Shown here: piece after piece, positions 20,010 to 33,504 of the stretch
Position numbering within the stretch: the stretch's first letter is position 1
How the letters are laid out: every line of letters begins with the position of its first letter
From: Taibaiella helva
GTDB taxonomy: Bacteria > Bacteroidota > Bacteroidia > Chitinophagales > Chitinophagaceae
DNA length: 64,000 nt
Assembly (NCBI RefSeq): GCF_003545695.1
Contig: NZ_QUZZ01000015.1
Span: 1 to 64,000 of the forward strand
Direction: 5' to 3'
Program-made: the position numbers and the translations under genes
Notes under the pieces: model-generated
Seen by the model: only the letters and a program-made list of their open reading frames with translations
Database searches by the model: none
What the model was told of the DNA's origin: nothing

Positions 20010-21560
20010 ATGATCAAAAATTACCTGCTGCTCGGTTGTCTGGCGGCCCAACCTTTTTTTTCAGGCGCACAGATCGATACCAATATCATTAAGAACATAC
20101 AGAGCGAAGCCATCAACCATTCCCAGATGGAAATGCTGGCGCAGCAATTGATGGACGATATCGGCCCGCGGCTGGTGGGCAGCCCGCAATTGCTGAAGGC
20201 CAACGACTGGCTGGTGAATACTTATAAAAGCTGGGGCATCAGCGCGCACAATGAAAAGTACGGCACCTGGCCGGGCTGGGAACGTGGTCAGACCAACATC
20301 GTGATGACTGCTCCACGTAGGGATCAGCTGGACGGCATACAGCTGGCCTGGTCGCCCCAAACACCCAAAGGCAAACCGATAGAGGCCGAAGTGATCGCGT
20401 TGCCTATGCTTAAGGATTCTCTGGCGCTGCAAGCCTGGCTGCCTCAGGCCAAAGGTAAGATCGTGCTGATCTCCCAACAGCAGGTATCGGGCAGGCCCGA
20501 GGCCAGCTGGAAGGAATATGCGCTGGAAGGCGATTATAAACGCTACCTGGAGCGGAAGGAAAAGGCTCTTAATGCCTGGTCCGACGGACTGAAGGCCATG
20601 GGCACCAATACACATAAGATACAGACGCAGCTGGAAGCCGCCGGGGCGGCCGCTTTGGTATCTTCCTTCTGGACGGGTGGCTGGTCGGCCAACCGTATCT
20701 TCGGTACCAAGACCAAGAAGATACCGCATGTAGATGTGCGGATGGAAGACTACCAGATGCTGTACCGGTTTACACAAAGAGGCATAAGGCCACGCCTGCA
20801 GATCACGACCAGCTCGAAGCACCTGGGGCCCATGCCTGCGCAGAACACTCTTGCCGAGATCAAAAGCAGCGTGAACCCGGAACAATACGTGATGCTCTCG
20901 GCACACTTCGACAGCTGGGACGGTGGTACCGGCGCTACGGATAACGGCACCGGTAGTATACTGATGATGGAAGTGATGCGTATACTGAAGAAATATTACC
21001 CCAATCCCAGGCGGAGCATTATGGCAGGGCACTGGGGCAGCGAAGAGCAGGGGCTGAACGGCTCCAAGGCCTTTGCCGCCGATCATAAGGACCTGATGCC
21101 GAAAATATCGGTGCTCTTTAACCAGGACAATGGTACGGGGCGCATCAGCAAGCTGAGCGGCCTGGGCTTCCTGGATGCTTACGATTACTTTGGCCGCTGG
21201 TTCAGCTACCTGCCCGAAGAGAACAGGAAAGCTATAGAGACCACTTTTCCCGGCGATCCGGGTGGGCGCGGCGGCTCAGACTATGCTGCCTTTATTCCTT
21301 ACGATGTGCCTGCTTTCTTCTTGCTGAGCAACAATTGGGACTATGGCATGTACACCTGGCATACCACGCTCGATACCTACGATAAGATTGTATGGGAAGA
21401 GGTGAAGCGTAATGCGGTAACTATAGCCACGCTGGTCTACCTGGCCTGCGAGGAGCCTGCTGCCTTCAGCCGCCGGAAAGCCGAACTGCCCCTGGAAAAA
21501 GGGGAGCGCATGAAATGGCCTGAGCCTAACGACGGGAACAGAACAGGAGAGGGATATTAA
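20010..21560 (+). CDS. Exported M28-family zinc aminopeptidase
   Basis: 516 residues, signal peptide about 1-20. A PA-like insert occupies about 120-260. The di-zinc centre is complete: His299 (SAHFDSWD), bridging Asp311 (GATDNGTG), catalytic Glu345 and ligand Glu346 (WGSEEQG), Asp373 (FNQDNG) and His451 (WHTTLDTYD). It should remove N-terminal residues from peptides in the periplasm or outside. The length fits M28 members with a PA domain. No operon partner. Confidence 0.88.
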   Translation: MIKNYLLLGCLAAQPFFSGAQIDTNIIKNIQSEAINHSQMEMLAQQLMDDIGPRLVGSPQLLKANDWLVNTYKSWGISAHNEKYGTWPGWERGQTNIVMTAPRRDQLDGIQLAWSPQTPKGKPIEAEVIALPMLKDSLALQAWLPQAKGKIVLISQQQVSGRPEASWKEYALEGDYKRYLERKEKALNAWSDGLKAMGTNTHKIQTQLEAAGAAALVSSFWTGGWSANRIFGTKTKKIPHVDVRMEDYQMLYRFTQRGIRPRLQITTSSKHLGPMPAQNTLAEIKSSVNPEQYVMLSAHFDSWDGGTGATDNGTGSILMMEVMRILKKYYPNPRRSIMAGHWGSEEQGLNGSKAFAADHKDLMPKISVLFNQDNGTGRISKLSGLGFLDAYDYFGRWFSYLPEENRKAIETTFPGDPGGRGGSDYAAFIPYDVPAFFLLSNNWDYGMYTWHTTLDTYDKIVWEEVKRNAVTIATLVYLACEEPAAFSRRKAELPLEKGERMKWPEPNDGNRTGEGY

Positions 21561-21666: not shown

Positions 21667-22065
21667 GAGACTTGCAGTGCGTTGTTGCAGATTGTTGTTT
21701 CGTTGTCGGAAACTTGCGGTGCGTTGTTGCAGATTGTTGTTTCGTTGTCGGAAACTTGCAGTGCATTGTTGCAGATTGTAGTTTCGTTGTCGGAAACTTG
21801 CGGTGCGTTGTTGCAGATTGTAGTTTCGTTGTCGGAAACTTGCGGTGCGTTATTGCAGATTCTAGTTGCGTTGTCGAAAACTTGCAGTGCGTTATTGCAG
21901 ATTGTTGTTTCGTTGTCGGAAACTTGCAGTGCATTGTTGCAGATTGTAGTTTCGTTGTCGGAAACTTGCAGTGCATTGTTGCAGATTGTAGTTTCGTTGT
22001 CGGAAACTTGCGGTGCGTTATTGCAGATTCTAGTTGCGTTGTCGGAAATTTGTAGTGCGTTATTA
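21667..22065. repeat. Tandem array: nine full 42-bp units plus a partial tenth
   Basis: Nine units fill 21667-22044 without gaps, then a partial unit to about 22065. Consensus parts are GAAACTTGC(A/G)GTGC, (G/A)TT(G/A)TTGCAGATT and (G/C)T(T/A)GTT(T/G)CGTTGTCG. Differences fall at unit positions 10, 15, 18, 28, 30 and 34 and recur in fixed combinations, as expected from unit duplication. Units 5 and 9 match except at the first base, and units 3, 7 and 8 are the same variant. As 42 is divisible by 3, frames stay open by arithmetic, and the variable positions do not favour any codon position. I therefore call it non-coding. No spacers, so not CRISPR. Confidence 0.9.
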
Positions 22066-26746: not shown

Positions 26747-27136
26747 ATGAAAAAAGCAATTCTTTCCGGAGCCTTTTCCCTGGCCTTGCTGACCACAGGT
26801 GCTGCCTATGCCAACACAGCTGTTGCCGTCGGCGCAGCGGAAGCCTCCATGCCCAACCAGGTTACGCTTACGGTTGAGATGTACCTGGTCGACAATATGG
26901 GCAATCCTGTAACCAGCTCGGGCGTGCATGGCTACTGGGCGCTTAATGTATTGACGGGTGAGCTGTATGAAACAGATACGCATACGCCCGATCTGTTCCT
27001 TGGCCTGCCTCCGGGTACATACACTTTTGGTACGATCAGCAATCCCTGGTGCGGCGGTAACCAGGTAGATGTAACCCTTGACGCATCTATGCAGGGCGAT
27101 CCCGTACCTGTTCAGCTGGTCTTTTGGGAAGAGTAA
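26747..27136 (+). CDS. Small secreted single-domain beta-sandwich protein
   Basis: 129 residues. Signal peptide 1-22 (cleavage after AYA). The mature 107 residues read as one Ig/carboxypeptidase-regulatory-like module: LTVEMYLVDNMGNPVTSSG, DLFLGLPPGTYTFGTI and VDVTLDASMQGDPVPVQL. No sorting domain, no catalytic motif. It has its own promoter match and strong terminator, so it is monocistronic. Function unknown. Confidence 0.65.
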   Translation: MKKAILSGAFSLALLTTGAAYANTAVAVGAAEASMPNQVTLTVEMYLVDNMGNPVTSSGVHGYWALNVLTGELYETDTHTPDLFLGLPPGTYTFGTISNPWCGGNQVDVTLDASMQGDPVPVQLVFWEE

Positions 27137-27186: not shown

Positions 27187-27229
27187 GTCTTGGAGCACTG
27201 TGGTTCTTTTGCAGTAACAGTAATAACAA

Positions 27230-27251
27230 AGCGGCACATTTACGTGCCGCT
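27230..27251 (-). terminator. Terminator of the RiPP precursor gene
   Basis: AGCGGCAC/GTGCCGCT with a 6-nt loop; the minus strand continues with TTGTTATTACTG. It lies 38 bp past the stop at 27289. Confidence 0.55.
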
Positions 27252-27288
27252 TGCTATTGCTTTTCTTTATGGTCAAAGGAAAGACCGC

Positions 27289-27537
27289 TTAATCAATGCA
27301 CCTGTAGATATCGGTTTCCCGGCCACAATTGACTTTAGTCTCGGTGAAGCATTGGGAAACGCGGGTAATAATGCAGGTGTGGGCGCCGCAGCTGGCCATA
27401 CAGGTTTCCTGCACTGTCCGTACACACAGATCCCCGTCGCGGGTCTCTGCGCCTCCTCTGATGGCATCGGTACCGGTGAGGGAGGCGATCGTCTTCTTGT
27501 TCAAGCGCAGCCTGGCTTGTTGGTTTTGCTTTTTCAT
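27289..27537 (-). CDS. Class I lanthipeptide-like RiPP precursor peptide
   Basis: 82 residues from the ATG at 27537; upstream in-frame ATGs exist at 27552 and 27663, but this one starts the leader. The leader (1-29) has a basic N-terminus, the LRLNKKTIASL segment typical of Bacteroidota natural-product precursors, and ends in a double glycine (Gly28-Gly29), the site for a C39-type transporter-peptidase. The 53-residue core has seven Cys (38, 46, 50, 55, 63, 71, 80) and ten Ser/Thr, often spaced for thioether rings (TVQETC, SCGAHTC). No dehydratase, cyclase, radical SAM or exporter gene lies in this window, so the precursor is isolated. It could instead be a cysteine-rich peptide modified by another route. 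Confidence 0.7.
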   Translation of the reverse strand: MKKQNQQARLRLNKKTIASLTGTDAIRGGAETRDGDLCVRTVQETCMASCGAHTCIITRVSQCFTETKVNCGRETDIYRCID

Positions 27538-27731
27538 AAAATCGTGCTTCATTTGGTGAACAATGAAGGTATACCATGTGTCTTCTTTGAAAAATACCCG
27601 GAAACAGGGATTTCGGGATGGTTCCCGCAAGAATTTTCGTAAAGTAAGTCCTGCCGGGACCAATCTCCTGGCGTTGTTCCCGTCAATAACTTTTAACTTA
27701 AGTATCTTTTGTCTACCCCAAAGAAGCTACT

Positions 27732-28439
27732 ATGGAAAAATTGATTAAAGAAGTGCGCTTCCTTAAGCTGTATTCAGCAATGCTTACCCTGGTATGCTGC
27801 TTGCTTTTCTTTTTTGCCTTTAAGCCGAATCACTCAAAGCAGCGTTTTGAGGAGATCGATGTAGAACGGATCAATATTGTAGAAAAAGATGGCAGCCTGA
27901 AGATGGTCATCAGCAACAAGCAGCGCCAGCATCCCGGTATGTTCAATGGTAAATCGCTTAAGCCCAGGACACGGGAAGCGGGGATGATCTTTTTCAACGA
28001 GCTGGGCGACGAATGCGGCGGCCTTGTCTACGATGGCAACGATAAAGAGTCGGCGATGGTCTACTCGGTAGATCCGCGGAATACCGACCAGATCATGCAG
28101 CTGCAGTACCTTGAGGGTGCAGGTGAGCATAAGTACCGAACCTATGGCCTGAAACTATGGGACAGGTCCGATGATTTTCCCATGGAAGCGATCATGAAAT
28201 TTGAAGATTCCCTGAAAGCGCTGAAGGATACGGCGGCTACCCGCAATGCCTACGCCTGGTTGAGGGCACAGGGCAAACTGGCGCAGGAGCGTCTCTTTGC
28301 TGGTAAGCTTTCCAATGGGGAAGTAGGACTATTCCTGCGTGATGATAAGGGGCGTGTACGCCTGAAGATCTATGTGGGCAAAGACAACCAGGCCCATATC
28401 GAGCAGCTGGATGAAACAGGACAGCTGATCGGTAAATAA
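27732..28439 (+). CDS. Membrane-anchored hypothetical protein
   Basis: 235 residues. One N-terminal membrane helix (about 12-29, KLYSAMLTLVCCLLFFFAF) with an N-in topology leaves about 200 residues outside the cytoplasm. The soluble part repeats strand pairs of the type RINIVEKDGSLKMVISN and VGLFLRDDKGRVRLKIYV, suggesting a small beta-propeller or beta-roll. Similar 'INIV..DG..+mvisn' proteins occur in several Bacteroidota, without known function. Stands alone. Confidence 0.65.
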   Translation: MEKLIKEVRFLKLYSAMLTLVCCLLFFFAFKPNHSKQRFEEIDVERINIVEKDGSLKMVISNKQRQHPGMFNGKSLKPRTREAGMIFFNELGDECGGLVYDGNDKESAMVYSVDPRNTDQIMQLQYLEGAGEHKYRTYGLKLWDRSDDFPMEAIMKFEDSLKALKDTAATRNAYAWLRAQGKLAQERLFAGKLSNGEVGLFLRDDKGRVRLKIYVGKDNQAHIEQLDETGQLIGK

Positions 28440-28594: not shown

Positions 28595-31500
28595 CTATTT
28601 CTTCGTTATTTTAACCTGCCAGTGACCTTGTTTGCCATCGTTGAAATGGAGCAGGTACACTCCTTGCGCAAAGCCCGAGAGGTCCATCCAGGCGTCGCTG
28701 TCCTGTACGATGGTCCTGGCGCGCAGGATGCGGCCCGAGAGGTCACAGAGGCTGACGTAGGCGCCTTTTCTTAAGCCTTCAAAGTAGACCTTGTCCTGTG
28801 CCGGATTGGGAAATACCTTAAAGCCCGCCGGCATACCGGTATTACCGATACCGCTGGTGCCTATCATCAGGGTAAGGGTATTGCTGCTCCAGGCCGTATC
28901 CGGGTCGGCGCAGGAAGAAAAGCTGCGCAGGAAGGCTTTTACCTGGTTGTTGTTTTTGATATCGGTGCCCGCAACAGCCGTCCAGGTAAGGCCGCTGATG
29001 CCCGTAAAAGTATTGTTGCGGTACCACAGCACCTGGTAGCCCTGATCGCCGATATCATTGAGCTGTGCGGTAAAGGTAACGGGCTGTCCGTTAGTCAGCT
29101 GAACGCCCGGGTTTGCAATTATTGCCAGCGAAGGATGGGTTACGGTCACGACGCTCATCGGCACCTCATTACTGTGTATCGTCGTGGCGCTGGCGCAGAT
29201 GGCATTGCTGGTCATCACGCAGCGCACAATATCCCCATCGCCGGGTGTATAAGTATAAGTGGTGGTATTAGCGCCCACATTGCTGCCGTTAAGTTTCCAT
29301 TGATAAGCGGGCGTGGTTCCGCCATGAGTGGGGGTAGCGGTAAAGGTGACTGGTATGCCGGAGCAGATGTGGTTTTCCGGCACATAAATATTCAATGAGG
29401 GATCTACAGTTGGCGTAACGTCCATGATCATGGCATTGCTGACAATGTTATTGCTGTTCAGGCAGGGATAATTGCTCGTCAGGGTGCAGGTGATGGTATC
29501 CTCATCTTCGGGCGCATAGACAAATACTGCGCTGTTGCTACCGGTATTGCTGCCGTTGACTTGCCATTGATAGGCAGGCAGGTTGCCGCCGCCGGTTACG
29601 GAAGCCGTGTAGGTGACCTGGGTACCGGAACACAGCAGGGCCGGGGCGTTGTTGCTGATCGAGATTGTGGGCGTGAGCATCGGTGTGGCTGTTACAGCCT
29701 TGGTCATCGCAACGGAGCTGCCGCAGGTGTTGACAGACTGAACGCTGATATTGCCGTTGCTGCTGCCGACAACCACGTTAATCGTGTTGGTGGTTGAAGT
29801 GCCTGTCCAGCCCGGCGGCAGGGCCCATGTATAGCTGCTGGCGCCGGCAACACTGGCGATGGAATAAGTTTGTGTGCTGCCGGTACAAGGGGCATCAGGA
29901 CCGGTAAGCGTACCAGGTACAGCGGGGATCGCATTGACCGTTATGGGAACGGTAATGCTGCTACCGGCGCAGCTGTTTGCGCTGGCGGTAACGGTATAGG
30001 TAGCGGTGCCGGTAACTGGTCCTGTCGCGGTCAGGGTTTGGGCGATGCTGCTGCCCGATCCGGTTGCGGCGCCGCTGACGCCGCTTTGAGCTGCAGTCCA
30101 GCTAAGGGTAGCGCCGGCTACGGGCGAGGATAAAGCAATGCCCGTCGCGCCGCCGCTGCAGAGCGTTTGGTTAGCAGGTGTCGCTACTGCGGCGGGTTTC
30201 GGATTCACGGCGACCGTTACGCTTACCGGCGTGCCGGCACAGCCGTTTGTCGTTGGCGTTATCGTATAGGTTGCGGTTCCCGGAGTAGTGCTGGTATTGG
30301 TCAGGGTTTGGGCAATGGTTGCGCCCGCCCCGGCTGTCGCGCCGCTGGCGCCGCTTTGCGTTACGGTCCAGGCATAAGTGGTGCCGGTGAGGTTGTCGCT
30401 GTTGACCAGGCTGGTTGCTGCGCCGCTGCAGACAGCCTGGCTGGCGGGTGTGACGGTCAGGGCCGGTGCGGGCTTCACGGTAACGGTAGCGTTAACGGAG
30501 GCGCCGTTGCAGCTGCCTGTTGAAGGCCGTATCATATAAGTAACTGTTCCGGCAGTAGTACCTGTAGCAGTCAGGGTCTGGGCGATCGTATTTCCGCTGC
30601 CGGCTGCAGCGCCGGTAGCGCCGCTTTGCATGATGCCCCAGGAGTAAGTCGTGCCCGTTTGCGGAGCCGACAATGCGATATTGGTCGCTGTGCCGCTGCA
30701 CAGGCTTACCGTAGTGGGAGTAACCGTTAATACCGGTAGCGGGGTAACGGTTATTGTTACGGTTACCGGCGTTCCGGGACATCCATTGGTGGTTGGCGTA
30801 ATCGTATAAGTAGCCGTTCCCGGTGCTGTGCCGGTATTGGTGAGCACCTGGCTTATCGCGCTGCCGTTGCCTGCTATGGCGCCGCTGACACTGCTTGACG
30901 CTACCGTCCAGCTGTAGGTGGTTCCGGTGAGGTTGGCGCTGAGCGCGATATTGGCCGTTGCGCCGGAGCACAGGTTTGTGGCTGCAGGTGTCGCTGTCGC
31001 TACCGGCCGCGGGTTGACCTTAACGGTCGCTGTTGCGGTATTGCCGGCGCAGGCGCCGATGGCCGGAGTAACGGTATAGACCGCTATCCCGGTTGCCGTA
31101 CCGCTATTGGTCAATGCCTGGGCAATAGTGCTGCCATTGCCGGAGGCAGCCCCGCTGACGCCGCTTTGCACAACCGTCCAGCTATAGGTAGCGCCTGCCT
31201 GGGGCGCCGATAAAGCAAGGCTTGTTGTCGCGCCGCTGCAGATCGTTTGGGTATCTGGTGTGATGGTAAGGGTAGGATAGGGCGTTACTGACATCGTAAT
31301 GCTGTTGCTGACAGCAGTATCCACGCTGCGGCAAAGGGCATCGGAGATCAGCTTCACGCTGACGACATCATTATGATTAAGCGCATTGTCGCTGTAGGTG
31401 GGACTACTGGTACCGGTAACCAGGCCGTTCTTCAGCCATTGGTAAGCCGCCGAGCCGCCATTGACAGGCGTTGCCGTAAAGGTTACATTAGTACCGGCGC

Positions 31501-33445
31501 AGATATTGCCGGAGGGGTTTGCGGCAATCGTTACCGAGGGAATCAGGGTAGGATTGACCAGGGCGGTAGTACTTCCGGGCGCAGAGGGACAGCCGGCAAC
31601 GGTTACCGTAACCTGGTAAGTACCGCTGGCTGCCGTGGTCGCTGCGGCAATGGTCGGATTCTGTAGGGCGCTGCTGAAACCGTTGGGCCCTGTCCAGGAA
31701 TAGCTGGCCCCGCTGACGGTCGCTGTGCTGAGGGCCAGGTTGGTACCGCTGCATATCGGTCCGTTGCTGCCTGCCACGGGTGTGGCCGGCGCCGCAGGGT
31801 CGTTAAGAACAAAGCTGCCGGGAACATTGGAGATGCAGGTGCCCCGGGCGGCGGCGATATTGCTGTAGCTGCCGGCGCCCAGTCCGGGAAGAGTGAGCAC
31901 ACCACCGGTAGTAGCCGTCAGGTTCAATGCAGCCTGCGGTACGGAGTTCTTATTATAGGTAACGGTATAGGCAGCGCTGGCTGTCATGCCAGTCAGGACG
32001 ATCGTACCGTCCGTACCCAGGCAGGTTGTCGGATGGGTAAGGGAAACGACCGGTACCGGCGCCGGCTCCTGGCCTATAGTCACGGTTTGCGTATCGATAC
32101 AGGAGTTGGCATCGTGGCAGATCACGCTGTAAGTACCTGTCGCCAGTCCGCTGGCGGTAGCGGCATTGCCACCCGAAGGGGACCAGGTGTAGGTATAAGC
32201 GCCCAGGCCACCGGTGACGGTTACTGTAGCGGTACCATTACCGGTGCCTCCGCAGGATACATCGGTATGGCTCATGGTAAGGTCGAGCGCCGGCGCCTGC
32301 GCAATCGTAAAGCTCCGGCTGTTGAAACAACCTTTGCTGTCGGTATAGGTACAGGTATAAGTGCCTGCGCCCAGCCCGGTGGCTGTTGCAGCATTGCCAC
32401 CCGAAGGGATCCAGGAATAAGTGTAAGGCGCTGTGCCGCCACTTACTGTGACTGTAGCGCTGCCGCTGCTCAGCGGTGCGCAGGTTGCTTTCTGGGTGCT
32501 GGTGGCGCTGAGAGCCGCCGGCTGACCGATCGCTACGATTGCCGTAGTGGTTTGAGAGGACGCGTCGGTAACGGTGCAGGTGTACGTGCCGGCCGGCTGG
32601 CCGGCGATCGAAGCGCTGCTGCCACCCGAGGGGAACCAGAAATAGGTGTAGGGTGGATTGCCACCTGAGACTGTAACGGTGGCCGAGCCGTTGCTGCCGC
32701 CATTACAGGATACATCGGTATGCGCCGTGATGCTGGCGCTGAAAGAAGGACCGCAGAGGCCTGGTGTAATGAGGTGGGTAAAGATGTTTTCCATCAGGTC
32801 GACCGCAGCAGGATAGGTCGTCGCATTCTGGATCCAGTCCTGGTCTGACGTCGTGATCAGCTTGCCATAGCTGGTATTGGCCGGGCAAAAGCACCAGCCG
32901 AGCGGGACATTGCCCGGTGTGCTGCGGACGAAGGTAAAGATATTGGCGCCTGCCGTGCCGGTGCAGCCATACCAGAAATAAGGCAGCGAAGGCACAGCGT
33001 TGTTCGTCGTAGCGAAAGAACCGTTGATCACCGGGTTCTGGTCATCATTTTGTGAGGCGCCCCAGGTAAAGCTGCTGCCCAGCGCGCCAACGATCTGGGC
33101 AAAGGCCGTATTGCCGCCGTAGGCGCTCAGGTATTCGGTTTGCAGATACACCGGCTTCCCCGATTGTAGAAAGGCCTTGATCGTATTGATCTGCGTGCTG
33201 GAATAGCCGGCGGTACCATCAGACACGATCAGGACATTGGTGCTGCTGAAAAAACTGTTGTTGTCCAGAACGCTGATGGGTTGGATATTCACTGTATGCC
33301 CCATTGCCGTGAGCACGGCTTGCCAGCGGGATGGCATGGAATAGACACCGCCCGCCGTTTGTGTTACCAGGACATTAAGCGCCATGGTATTCCGGGAATA
33401 CGAGAGTAACAGGCATAACATTAATAAGGTAGAAAGTCTCTTCAT
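28595..33445 (-). CDS. Giant T9SS type A repeat protein (SprB, PKD-like and Ig-like repeats)
   Basis: 1616 residues from the ATG at 33445, which begins the signal peptide MKRLSTLLMLCLLLSYSR. An N-terminal domain (about 25-235) alternates strands and helices (LNVLVTQTAGGVYSM, NVLIVSDGTAGYSS, KPVYLQTEY) like a glutamine-amidotransferase/ThuA-type fold, probably without catalysis. Three SprB-type repeats follow ('DVSC.GG.NGSATVTVSGG..PYTY.W.PSGG'). A mixed Ig region precedes five PKD-like repeats of exactly 90 residues, each starting near '(L/I/V)CSG', then three Ig-like modules with 'AYQW..NGSN.G'. The type A sorting domain closes the chain (FKVFPNPAQDKVYF). SprB-like repeats occur in gliding adhesins, so surface adhesion is a reasonable but unproven role. 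Confidence 0.85.
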   Translation of the reverse strand: MKRLSTLLMLCLLLSYSRNTMALNVLVTQTAGGVYSMPSRWQAVLTAMGHTVNIQPISVLDNNSFFSSTNVLIVSDGTAGYSSTQINTIKAFLQSGKPVYLQTEYLSAYGGNTAFAQIVGALGSSFTWGASQNDDQNPVINGSFATTNNAVPSLPYFWYGCTGTAGANIFTFVRSTPGNVPLGWCFCPANTSYGKLITTSDQDWIQNATTYPAAVDLMENIFTHLITPGLCGPSFSASITAHTDVSCNGGSNGSATVTVSGGNPPYTYFWFPSGGSSASIAGQPAGTYTCTVTDASSQTTTAIVAIGQPAALSATSTQKATCAPLSSGSATVTVSGGTAPYTYSWIPSGGNAATATGLGAGTYTCTYTDSKGCFNSRSFTIAQAPALDLTMSHTDVSCGGTGNGTATVTVTGGLGAYTYTWSPSGGNAATASGLATGTYSVICHDANSCIDTQTVTIGQEPAPVPVVSLTHPTTCLGTDGTIVLTGMTASAAYTVTYNKNSVPQAALNLTATTGGVLTLPGLGAGSYSNIAAARGTCISNVPGSFVLNDPAAPATPVAGSNGPICSGTNLALSTATVSGASYSWTGPNGFSSALQNPTIAAATTAASGTYQVTVTVAGCPSAPGSTTALVNPTLIPSVTIAANPSGNICAGTNVTFTATPVNGGSAAYQWLKNGLVTGTSSPTYSDNALNHNDVVSVKLISDALCRSVDTAVSNSITMSVTPYPTLTITPDTQTICSGATTSLALSAPQAGATYSWTVVQSGVSGAASGNGSTIAQALTNSGTATGIAVYTVTPAIGACAGNTATATVKVNPRPVATATPAATNLCSGATANIALSANLTGTTYSWTVASSSVSGAIAGNGSAISQVLTNTGTAPGTATYTITPTTNGCPGTPVTVTITVTPLPVLTVTPTTVSLCSGTATNIALSAPQTGTTYSWGIMQSGATGAAAGSGNTIAQTLTATGTTAGTVTYMIRPSTGSCNGASVNATVTVKPAPALTVTPASQAVCSGAATSLVNSDNLTGTTYAWTVTQSGASGATAGAGATIAQTLTNTSTTPGTATYTITPTTNGCAGTPVSVTVAVNPKPAAVATPANQTLCSGGATGIALSSPVAGATLSWTAAQSGVSGAATGSGSSIAQTLTATGPVTGTATYTVTASANSCAGSSITVPITVNAIPAVPGTLTGPDAPCTGSTQTYSIASVAGASSYTWALPPGWTGTSTTNTINVVVGSSNGNISVQSVNTCGSSVAMTKAVTATPMLTPTISISNNAPALLCSGTQVTYTASVTGGGNLPAYQWQVNGSNTGSNSAVFVYAPEDEDTITCTLTSNYPCLNSNNIVSNAMIMDVTPTVDPSLNIYVPENHICSGIPVTFTATPTHGGTTPAYQWKLNGSNVGANTTTYTYTPGDGDIVRCVMTSNAICASATTIHSNEVPMSVVTVTHPSLAIIANPGVQLTNGQPVTFTAQLNDIGDQGYQVLWYRNNTFTGISGLTWTAVAGTDIKNNNQVKAFLRSFSSCADPDTAWSSNTLTLMIGTSGIGNTGMPAGFKVFPNPAQDKVYFEGLRKGAYVSLCDLSGRILRARTIVQDSDAWMDLSGFAQGVYLLHFNDGKQGHWQVKITKK
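29915..31265 (-). repeat. Five in-frame 270-bp repeats inside the giant T9SS gene
   Basis: The codons for the Cys-Ser-Gly anchor lie at 31231, 30961, 30691, 30421 and 30151, exactly 270 bp apart each time. The units encode the 90-residue PKD-like domains and share long identical stretches such as the GCCGCTGCA anchor. Confidence 0.85.
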
Positions 33446-33496
33446 GAAGCATGTATTATGAATGGTGTGTAAGAGAGCGGCAGTCGTTATCTGAGG

Positions 33497-33504
33497 CAAA
33501 ATTA
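33497..33504 (-). promoter_or_regulatory. Candidate -7 element of the giant T9SS gene
   Basis: Minus-strand TAATTTTG followed by CC, full consensus, about 50 bp before the ATG at 33445. It lies just two bases inside the 5' end of the longer frame that starts at 33499, which supports the 33445 start. Confidence 0.5.

Follow-up and report, generated by a model that had tools for sequence, protein, structure and literature searches.

One of about seventy putative class I lanthipeptide precursors scattered through the genome of a soil-type bacterium, apparently sharing few enzymes

The PedA15 lanthipeptides of Pedobacter lusitanus were reportedly described by Bothwell et al. 2021. Elsewhere, according to PMC10783134, ProcM has 29 precursors and SyncM 79 putative precursors, some of them scattered. 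The leader motif LxLxKx5L is given by Walker et al. 2020 (PMC7268733) as that of LanB-associated class I precursors of Bacteroidetes.

Here we analyse a gene that carries this motif in Taibaiella helva. It lies in a 64-kb window (C5:1-64000), the whole stretch of DNA that was analysed. Translation of the minus strand, a strand that the original prediction had left unnamed, confirmed the predicted 82-aa frame with Gly28-Gly29 and a 53-residue core. The features are as follows.

27289..27537, minus strand: precursor gene, 82 aa plus stop (ATG 27537-27535, stop 27291-27289), from translation
27451..27537, minus strand: leader, residues 1-29, with the LxLxKx5L motif LRLNKKTIASL and ending in Gly28-Gly29 (NF038153, leave-one-out profile, and the motif as given in PMC7268733)
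27292..27450, minus strand: core, residues 30-82, with 7 Cys and 10 Ser/Thr, read from the translation
27229..27252, minus strand: terminator-like stem-loop 3' of the gene, possibly bidirectional (10 pairs, 6 of them G-C, loop of 4, T-rich tail)
27564..27573, minus strand: possible -7 promoter element TATACCTTCA, an imperfect match to TAnnTTTG, also upstream of the T. koreensis ortholog
26747..27136, plus strand: converging neighbour encoding a 129-aa secreted-looking protein, which also adjoins the T. koreensis ortholog and has no Pfam match; context, outside the system

The gene stands alone, with the converging 129-aa gene on one side and a divergent 235-aa gene (27732-28439) on the other, and the Pfam search returned no family for the precursor or for either neighbour. 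A terminator of its own had been predicted, and a terminator-like stem indeed follows the gene at 27252-27229; because this inverted repeat scores on both strands, the converging gene may use it as well. No sigma-70 type promoter was found between 26600 and 28400, and the Bacteroidota -7 promoter consensus is TAnnTTTG. The absence of biosynthetic genes from the window was likewise borne out, with all LanB, LanC and C39 matches of the genome on contigs C31-C33. Elsewhere in the window, a tandem array of a 42-bp unit (21670-22061, 9.3 copies, 92% matches) directly follows a 516-aa gene (20010-21560), and positions 28595-33499 encode a surface-type protein of 1,634 aa in which SprB, PKD-like and secretion-tail domains were recognised.

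A full-length, syntenic ortholog is present in T. koreensis (G002; 69% identical, E 1.1e-28), and it keeps 7 of 7 Cys. Two other genomes of the genus gave leader-level matches only (G001) or no match to the 82-aa peptide at E ≤ 0.1 (G003). Over 81 codons of the whole gene, the comparison with T. koreensis yielded dN 0.20, dS 0.99-1.39 (two methods) and dN/dS 0.15-0.21; the core gave dN 0.24, dS 0.97-1.11 and dN/dS 0.21-0.25. By this codon comparison, 27289..27537 is a real gene under purifying selection. The original prediction had left a choice between maturation in trans and a relic of a lost gene cluster. A relic might be suspected from the lack of any biosynthetic gene nearby and of either shared regulatory element upstream (see below), but the open frame, the syntenic ortholog, the retained Cys and the low whole-gene dN/dS argue that the gene is not one, and we regard this explanation as barely credible. 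Of the two, maturation in trans is favoured, given LanB, LanC and C39 genes elsewhere in the genome. A chance open frame was also considered and was ruled out by the ortholog, the selection and the leader profile.

For the leader, the best and only family match of the 82-aa peptide was NF038153 (lant_leader_L1a) at 20.3 bits, 1.7 below the cut-off of 22, and the T. koreensis ortholog scored 13.3 bits against the same cut-off; that both fall under the NCBI threshold is a point against class I maturation in trans. A leave-one-out leader profile was built from 116 other precursors, with the gene itself and every T. koreensis sequence set aside, and applied to 757 candidate peptides (the ortholog and 756 peptides of the window, counting nested starts). 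The 82-aa peptide obtained E 3.7e-9 and the same frame with a start five codons earlier 4.0e-9, followed by the ortholog at 9.1e-6 and the next window peptide at 0.55; the frame is the window's only strong match to this profile. The predicted class I leader thus finds support in its motif, in the subthreshold NF038153 match and in the family profile.

The gene had also been called an orphan, which holds locally and fails genome-wide, since it is one of about 72 precursors. This total comprises 71 places matched by NF038153 at E ≤ 10 (of which 48 score ≥22 bits), minus one false match (a 342-aa frame), plus two members that NF038153 missed and that were found via a shared operator. Leader-family paralogs, proposed as a check, are thereby counted on 13 contigs. 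As many as 65 of the 72 lie more than 10 kb from any LanB/LanC/C39 gene or on a different contig, six lie within about 1.3 kb of LanB/LanC, and 45 have no second precursor within 5 kb. Strict LxLxKx5L is present in 61/70 leaders and Gly-Gly in 65/70, with a single Cys in all leaders together. Pooled cores contain 13.7% Cys and 19.9% Ser+Thr; at least three Cys occur in 68/72 precursors, and the 3/70 with one Cys may not belong to the family. At E ≤ 1e-3 the cores fall into 41 clusters; the largest has 24 members, and the others are single or paired.

A search of the genome for lanthionine-forming enzymes and a C39 exporter, also proposed at the outset, yielded two LanB sets, four LanC and one C39 exporter. 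In the first set (C33:195903-203341), a 1,063-aa LanB containing both dehydratase domains is followed by the C39-ABC exporter, HlyD and a Crp/Fnr-type (cNMP-binding) gene; the second (C33:60165-64914) consists of LanA, LanC and a split LanB. Beyond the latter, LanC genes are found at C31:52085, C31:761 and C32:13159, each beside one or two precursors. The C39 match, which adjoins LanB, is the only one in the genome. Catalytic motifs are present in C39 (DCGPTC...H) and in 4/4 LanC (CHG), whose frames of 398-408 aa are too short for LanM. LanB matches the solved structures 9g04 and 5ehk in sequence comparison and is 89% identical to T. koreensis LanB.

Among 39 genomes, leader matches at E ≤ 0.05 occurred in five (65, 73, 105, 1 and 1), with the large counts in three genomes of the same genus; LanB was found in six and LanC in seven, and all five leader-positive genomes have both. 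In 15 of 34 genomes absence could be judged only coarsely, because the sensitivity of the search for short peptides is limited; this counts against the reading of maturation in trans. G003, of the same genus, gave no leader, LanB or LanC match; set against the three same-genus genomes with dozens of precursors, this points to gain or loss of the entire system within the genus. In an even sample of the phylum, 11/395 genomes matched at E ≤ 0.01, with at most 19 candidates scored per genome, so that per-genome counts are lower bounds. In G242, the other genome of this sample at the 19-candidate maximum, the matches sit together in a single array of about 3.3 kb; among the few genomes examined in detail, the dispersed pattern was seen only in this genus.

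To look for a ring signature, non-Cys residues were shuffled within the 72 own, 79 T. koreensis and 45 G001 cores. Five residues before Cys, Ser/Thr was enriched (z 5.7, 7.6 and 7.7, respectively), and at +1 it was depleted (z -4.2, -5.5 and -3.7); because of their common ancestry, the own set and that of T. koreensis are not independent. Ser/Thr was found within six residues before 421/435 Cys and after 342/435. In the present core, 4 of 7 Cys have a Thr exactly five residues earlier (T12-C17, T16-C21, T29-C34 and T46-C51, core numbering). The enrichment five residues before Cys fits lanthionine rings, as far as residue spacing can indicate. Points against are the sign flip at -3 (z 4.4, 3.2 and -3.0 in the same order) and some enrichment at +2 (z 2.2, 3.5 and 3.6); Pro at +1 from Cys is enriched too (6.6).

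Conservation of the cores was assessed on reciprocal best pairs between the 72 own and 79 T. koreensis precursors. There were 46 such pairs, a lower bound since the T. koreensis set holds 79 of at least 105 precursors, and the 40 with ≥74 bits were used. In these, 242/246 Cys were kept, 319/345 Ser/Thr remained Ser/Thr and 816/1,137 other residues were identical. Median identity was 82% for cores and 76% for leaders, with the core higher in 26/40 pairs (Wilcoxon P 0.14), meaning that cores are at least as conserved as leaders, not significantly more.

These data bear on whether the family might be exported double-glycine peptides, unmodified or disulfide-forming, with a leader serving solely as a C39 export signal. 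The single intact C39-ABC exporter and the Cys-rich cores would suit such peptides. Their leader motif, however, is the one that PMC7268733 assigns to LanB-associated precursors, and every genome with leader matches among the 39 also has LanB and LanC. Ser/Thr is enriched at a fixed distance before Cys, and it is kept in 92.5% of cases, against 63-82% for other exchangeable classes. We consider plain export unlikely, and favour with good confidence the reading of 27289..27537 as a class I lanthipeptide precursor matured in trans by shared enzymes. Core modification is deduced from sequence.

In this scheme, the LxLxKx5L part of the leader would recruit a shared LanB dehydratase, which would dehydrate core Ser/Thr, and one of the four LanC, stand-alone or clustered, would join the dehydro-residues to downstream Cys. 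The single C39-ABC exporter would then cut after Gly-Gly and export the product with HlyD. Either of the two LanB sets and any of the four LanC would be a candidate for this precursor, and each product of the roughly 72 scattered precursors would be kept by selection, as seen for the 40 best ortholog pairs.

Two elements recur upstream of the precursors. The first, an operator ACTGCA-N7-TGCAGT, is common to 21/72. With ≤2 mismatches, it was found within 150 bp upstream of 19/70 precursors, compared with 0.5 in shuffles; 18 copies lie at -53 to -67, and among spacings of 2-13 only spacing 7 showed enrichment of that strength. Genome-wide sites with ≤1 mismatch numbered 39 (own), 15 (G001), 37 (T. 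koreensis) and 7 (G003), against 1, 0, 0 and 1 for a reversed-pattern control. The 39 own sites precede 18 leader-model precursors, two further precursors, one microviridin-type precursor and the C32 LanC (at -106), and the other 17, which are unassigned, are near the expected chance level (about 10). Exact sites stand before RiPP precursors in 8/8 own cases and 14/15 in T. koreensis, where the remaining one stands before the gene of a secreted-looking protein of 528 aa. In G001, 0/45 precursors examined carry the operator despite 73 leader matches, and the genome has one exact site. A one-mismatch operator is also found 171 bp upstream of a frame of 48 aa that ends in VMGCGCYAAHCCVAKNVQ (L133, C6:7699), perhaps another small peptide class.

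The microviridin/marinostatin-type precursor (L129, C27:521444-521800; NF033738 47.6 bits, cut-off 26) has an exact operator at -66, as does its T. koreensis ortholog, L197; different RiPP classes are therefore co-regulated here. This sharing lends something to the idea that the present precursor is modified by enzymes of a non-LanB/LanC class (e.g. ATP-grasp or radical SAM), its LanB-like leader reflecting shared ancestry only. The leader motif and the pattern of Cys and Ser/Thr fit lanthionine formation instead, and we hold such enzymes to be very improbable. Returning to lanthionine formation in trans, a candidate regulator is the Crp/Fnr-type gene, which adjoins LanB-C39-HlyD in T. koreensis too (85% identical); in G001, without the operator, no such gene lies within 7 kb of LanB-C39-HlyD. 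This co-occurrence (n = 3) is a weak hint.

The second element, CGCTGAACAACCNCYCCATGGCG-N-AAGACAGGRGAGG, lies 17-29 nt before the ATG of 10/72 own, 8/79 T. koreensis and 7/45 G001 precursors and corresponds to a covarying pseudoknot. Pairs were counted by script, as MAFFT misaligned part of the set. The inner loop and a purine-rich run were paired in 156/175 cells (at most 145 across 2,000 shuffles in which the loop offset was re-optimised) and the first stem in 92/100 (shuffles at most 90); the sequences are related, so the shuffles give no strict probability. In 1.05 Mb biased to precursor regions, a regular-expression scan found the element upstream of precursors and otherwise gave a few chance-like matches. 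A known riboswitch family was rejected, with no overlapping Rfam match at 10 loci (E ≤ 5), and the two short stretches gave only one chance-level snoRNA match at E ≤ 10 (E 8.6). A resemblance to the SAM/SAH pseudoknot riboswitch was considered and found no support. Separately, a second hairpin-like element, GTGCCTGYACAC...AAATGRCAGCG, was seen upstream of precursors that adjoin LanB in four species (L050, near 90; L094; L096; L124, with three copies), and pairing of its loop CUGU with ACAG looks possible.

Across the 40 ortholog pairs, 13 have the operator in both species, four the pseudoknot, 22 neither, and one is discordant. By sequence, about 21 precursors would be under the operator and 10 under the pseudoknot RNA; 27289..27537 has neither upstream and would be served by its own promoter region. 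The 41 precursors without either element show weak CCGGGA enrichment (9 vs 0.8). We read the gene as a probable member of a scattered, selected and co-regulated class I lanthipeptide precursor family. A broader proposal, to which we give about even credence, is that one lineage of Taibaiella has made class I lanthipeptide biosynthesis into a regulon spanning the genome. Its 70 to 100 unlinked precursors, each with a core kept by selection for a role of its own, would share a LanB, several LanC and one exporter and be switched in sets. A transcription factor acting at ACTGCA-N7-TGCAGT would govern one set together with a microviridin-type peptide, the candidate being the Crp/Fnr-type gene that follows LanB-C39-HlyD; a second set would be under a hitherto undescribed pseudoknot RNA, possibly a riboswitch, that masks the ribosome site. 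The operator and the pseudoknot would offer direct handles on which signal turns on which precursor subset.

Our literature search, in which subscription journals were thinly covered so that an earlier description is possible, found no paper linking Taibaiella with lanthipeptides and none on scattered class I precursors in Bacteroidota. The family resembles the Bacteroidetes class I LanA of PMC7268733 in its leader motif, its Gly-Gly and the C39 exporter beside LanB. That survey covered at most seven genes from LanC, whereas most precursors here are far from enzymes, and mining near enzymes would miss about nine tenths of them. The PedA15 lanthipeptides, as named in PMC12328550, are likewise class I and from Bacteroidota. 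With the prochlorosins and synechococsins, as PMC10783134 describes them, the family shares many unlinked precursors, a conserved leader type, few enzymes and maturation in trans. Prochlorosins differ in having a class II LanM and a Nif11-type leader, in contrast to class I LanB and several LanC in Bacteroidota, and set against them the present family has 65, 73 and 105 leader matches in three same-genus genomes, a shared operator and a pseudoknot. The use of each product is still an open question for prochlorosins; here the conservation of cores between species argues that each has one. The T. helva family, although not filed as a member, would work like the prochlorosins, extending trans maturation on their scale to class I enzymes.
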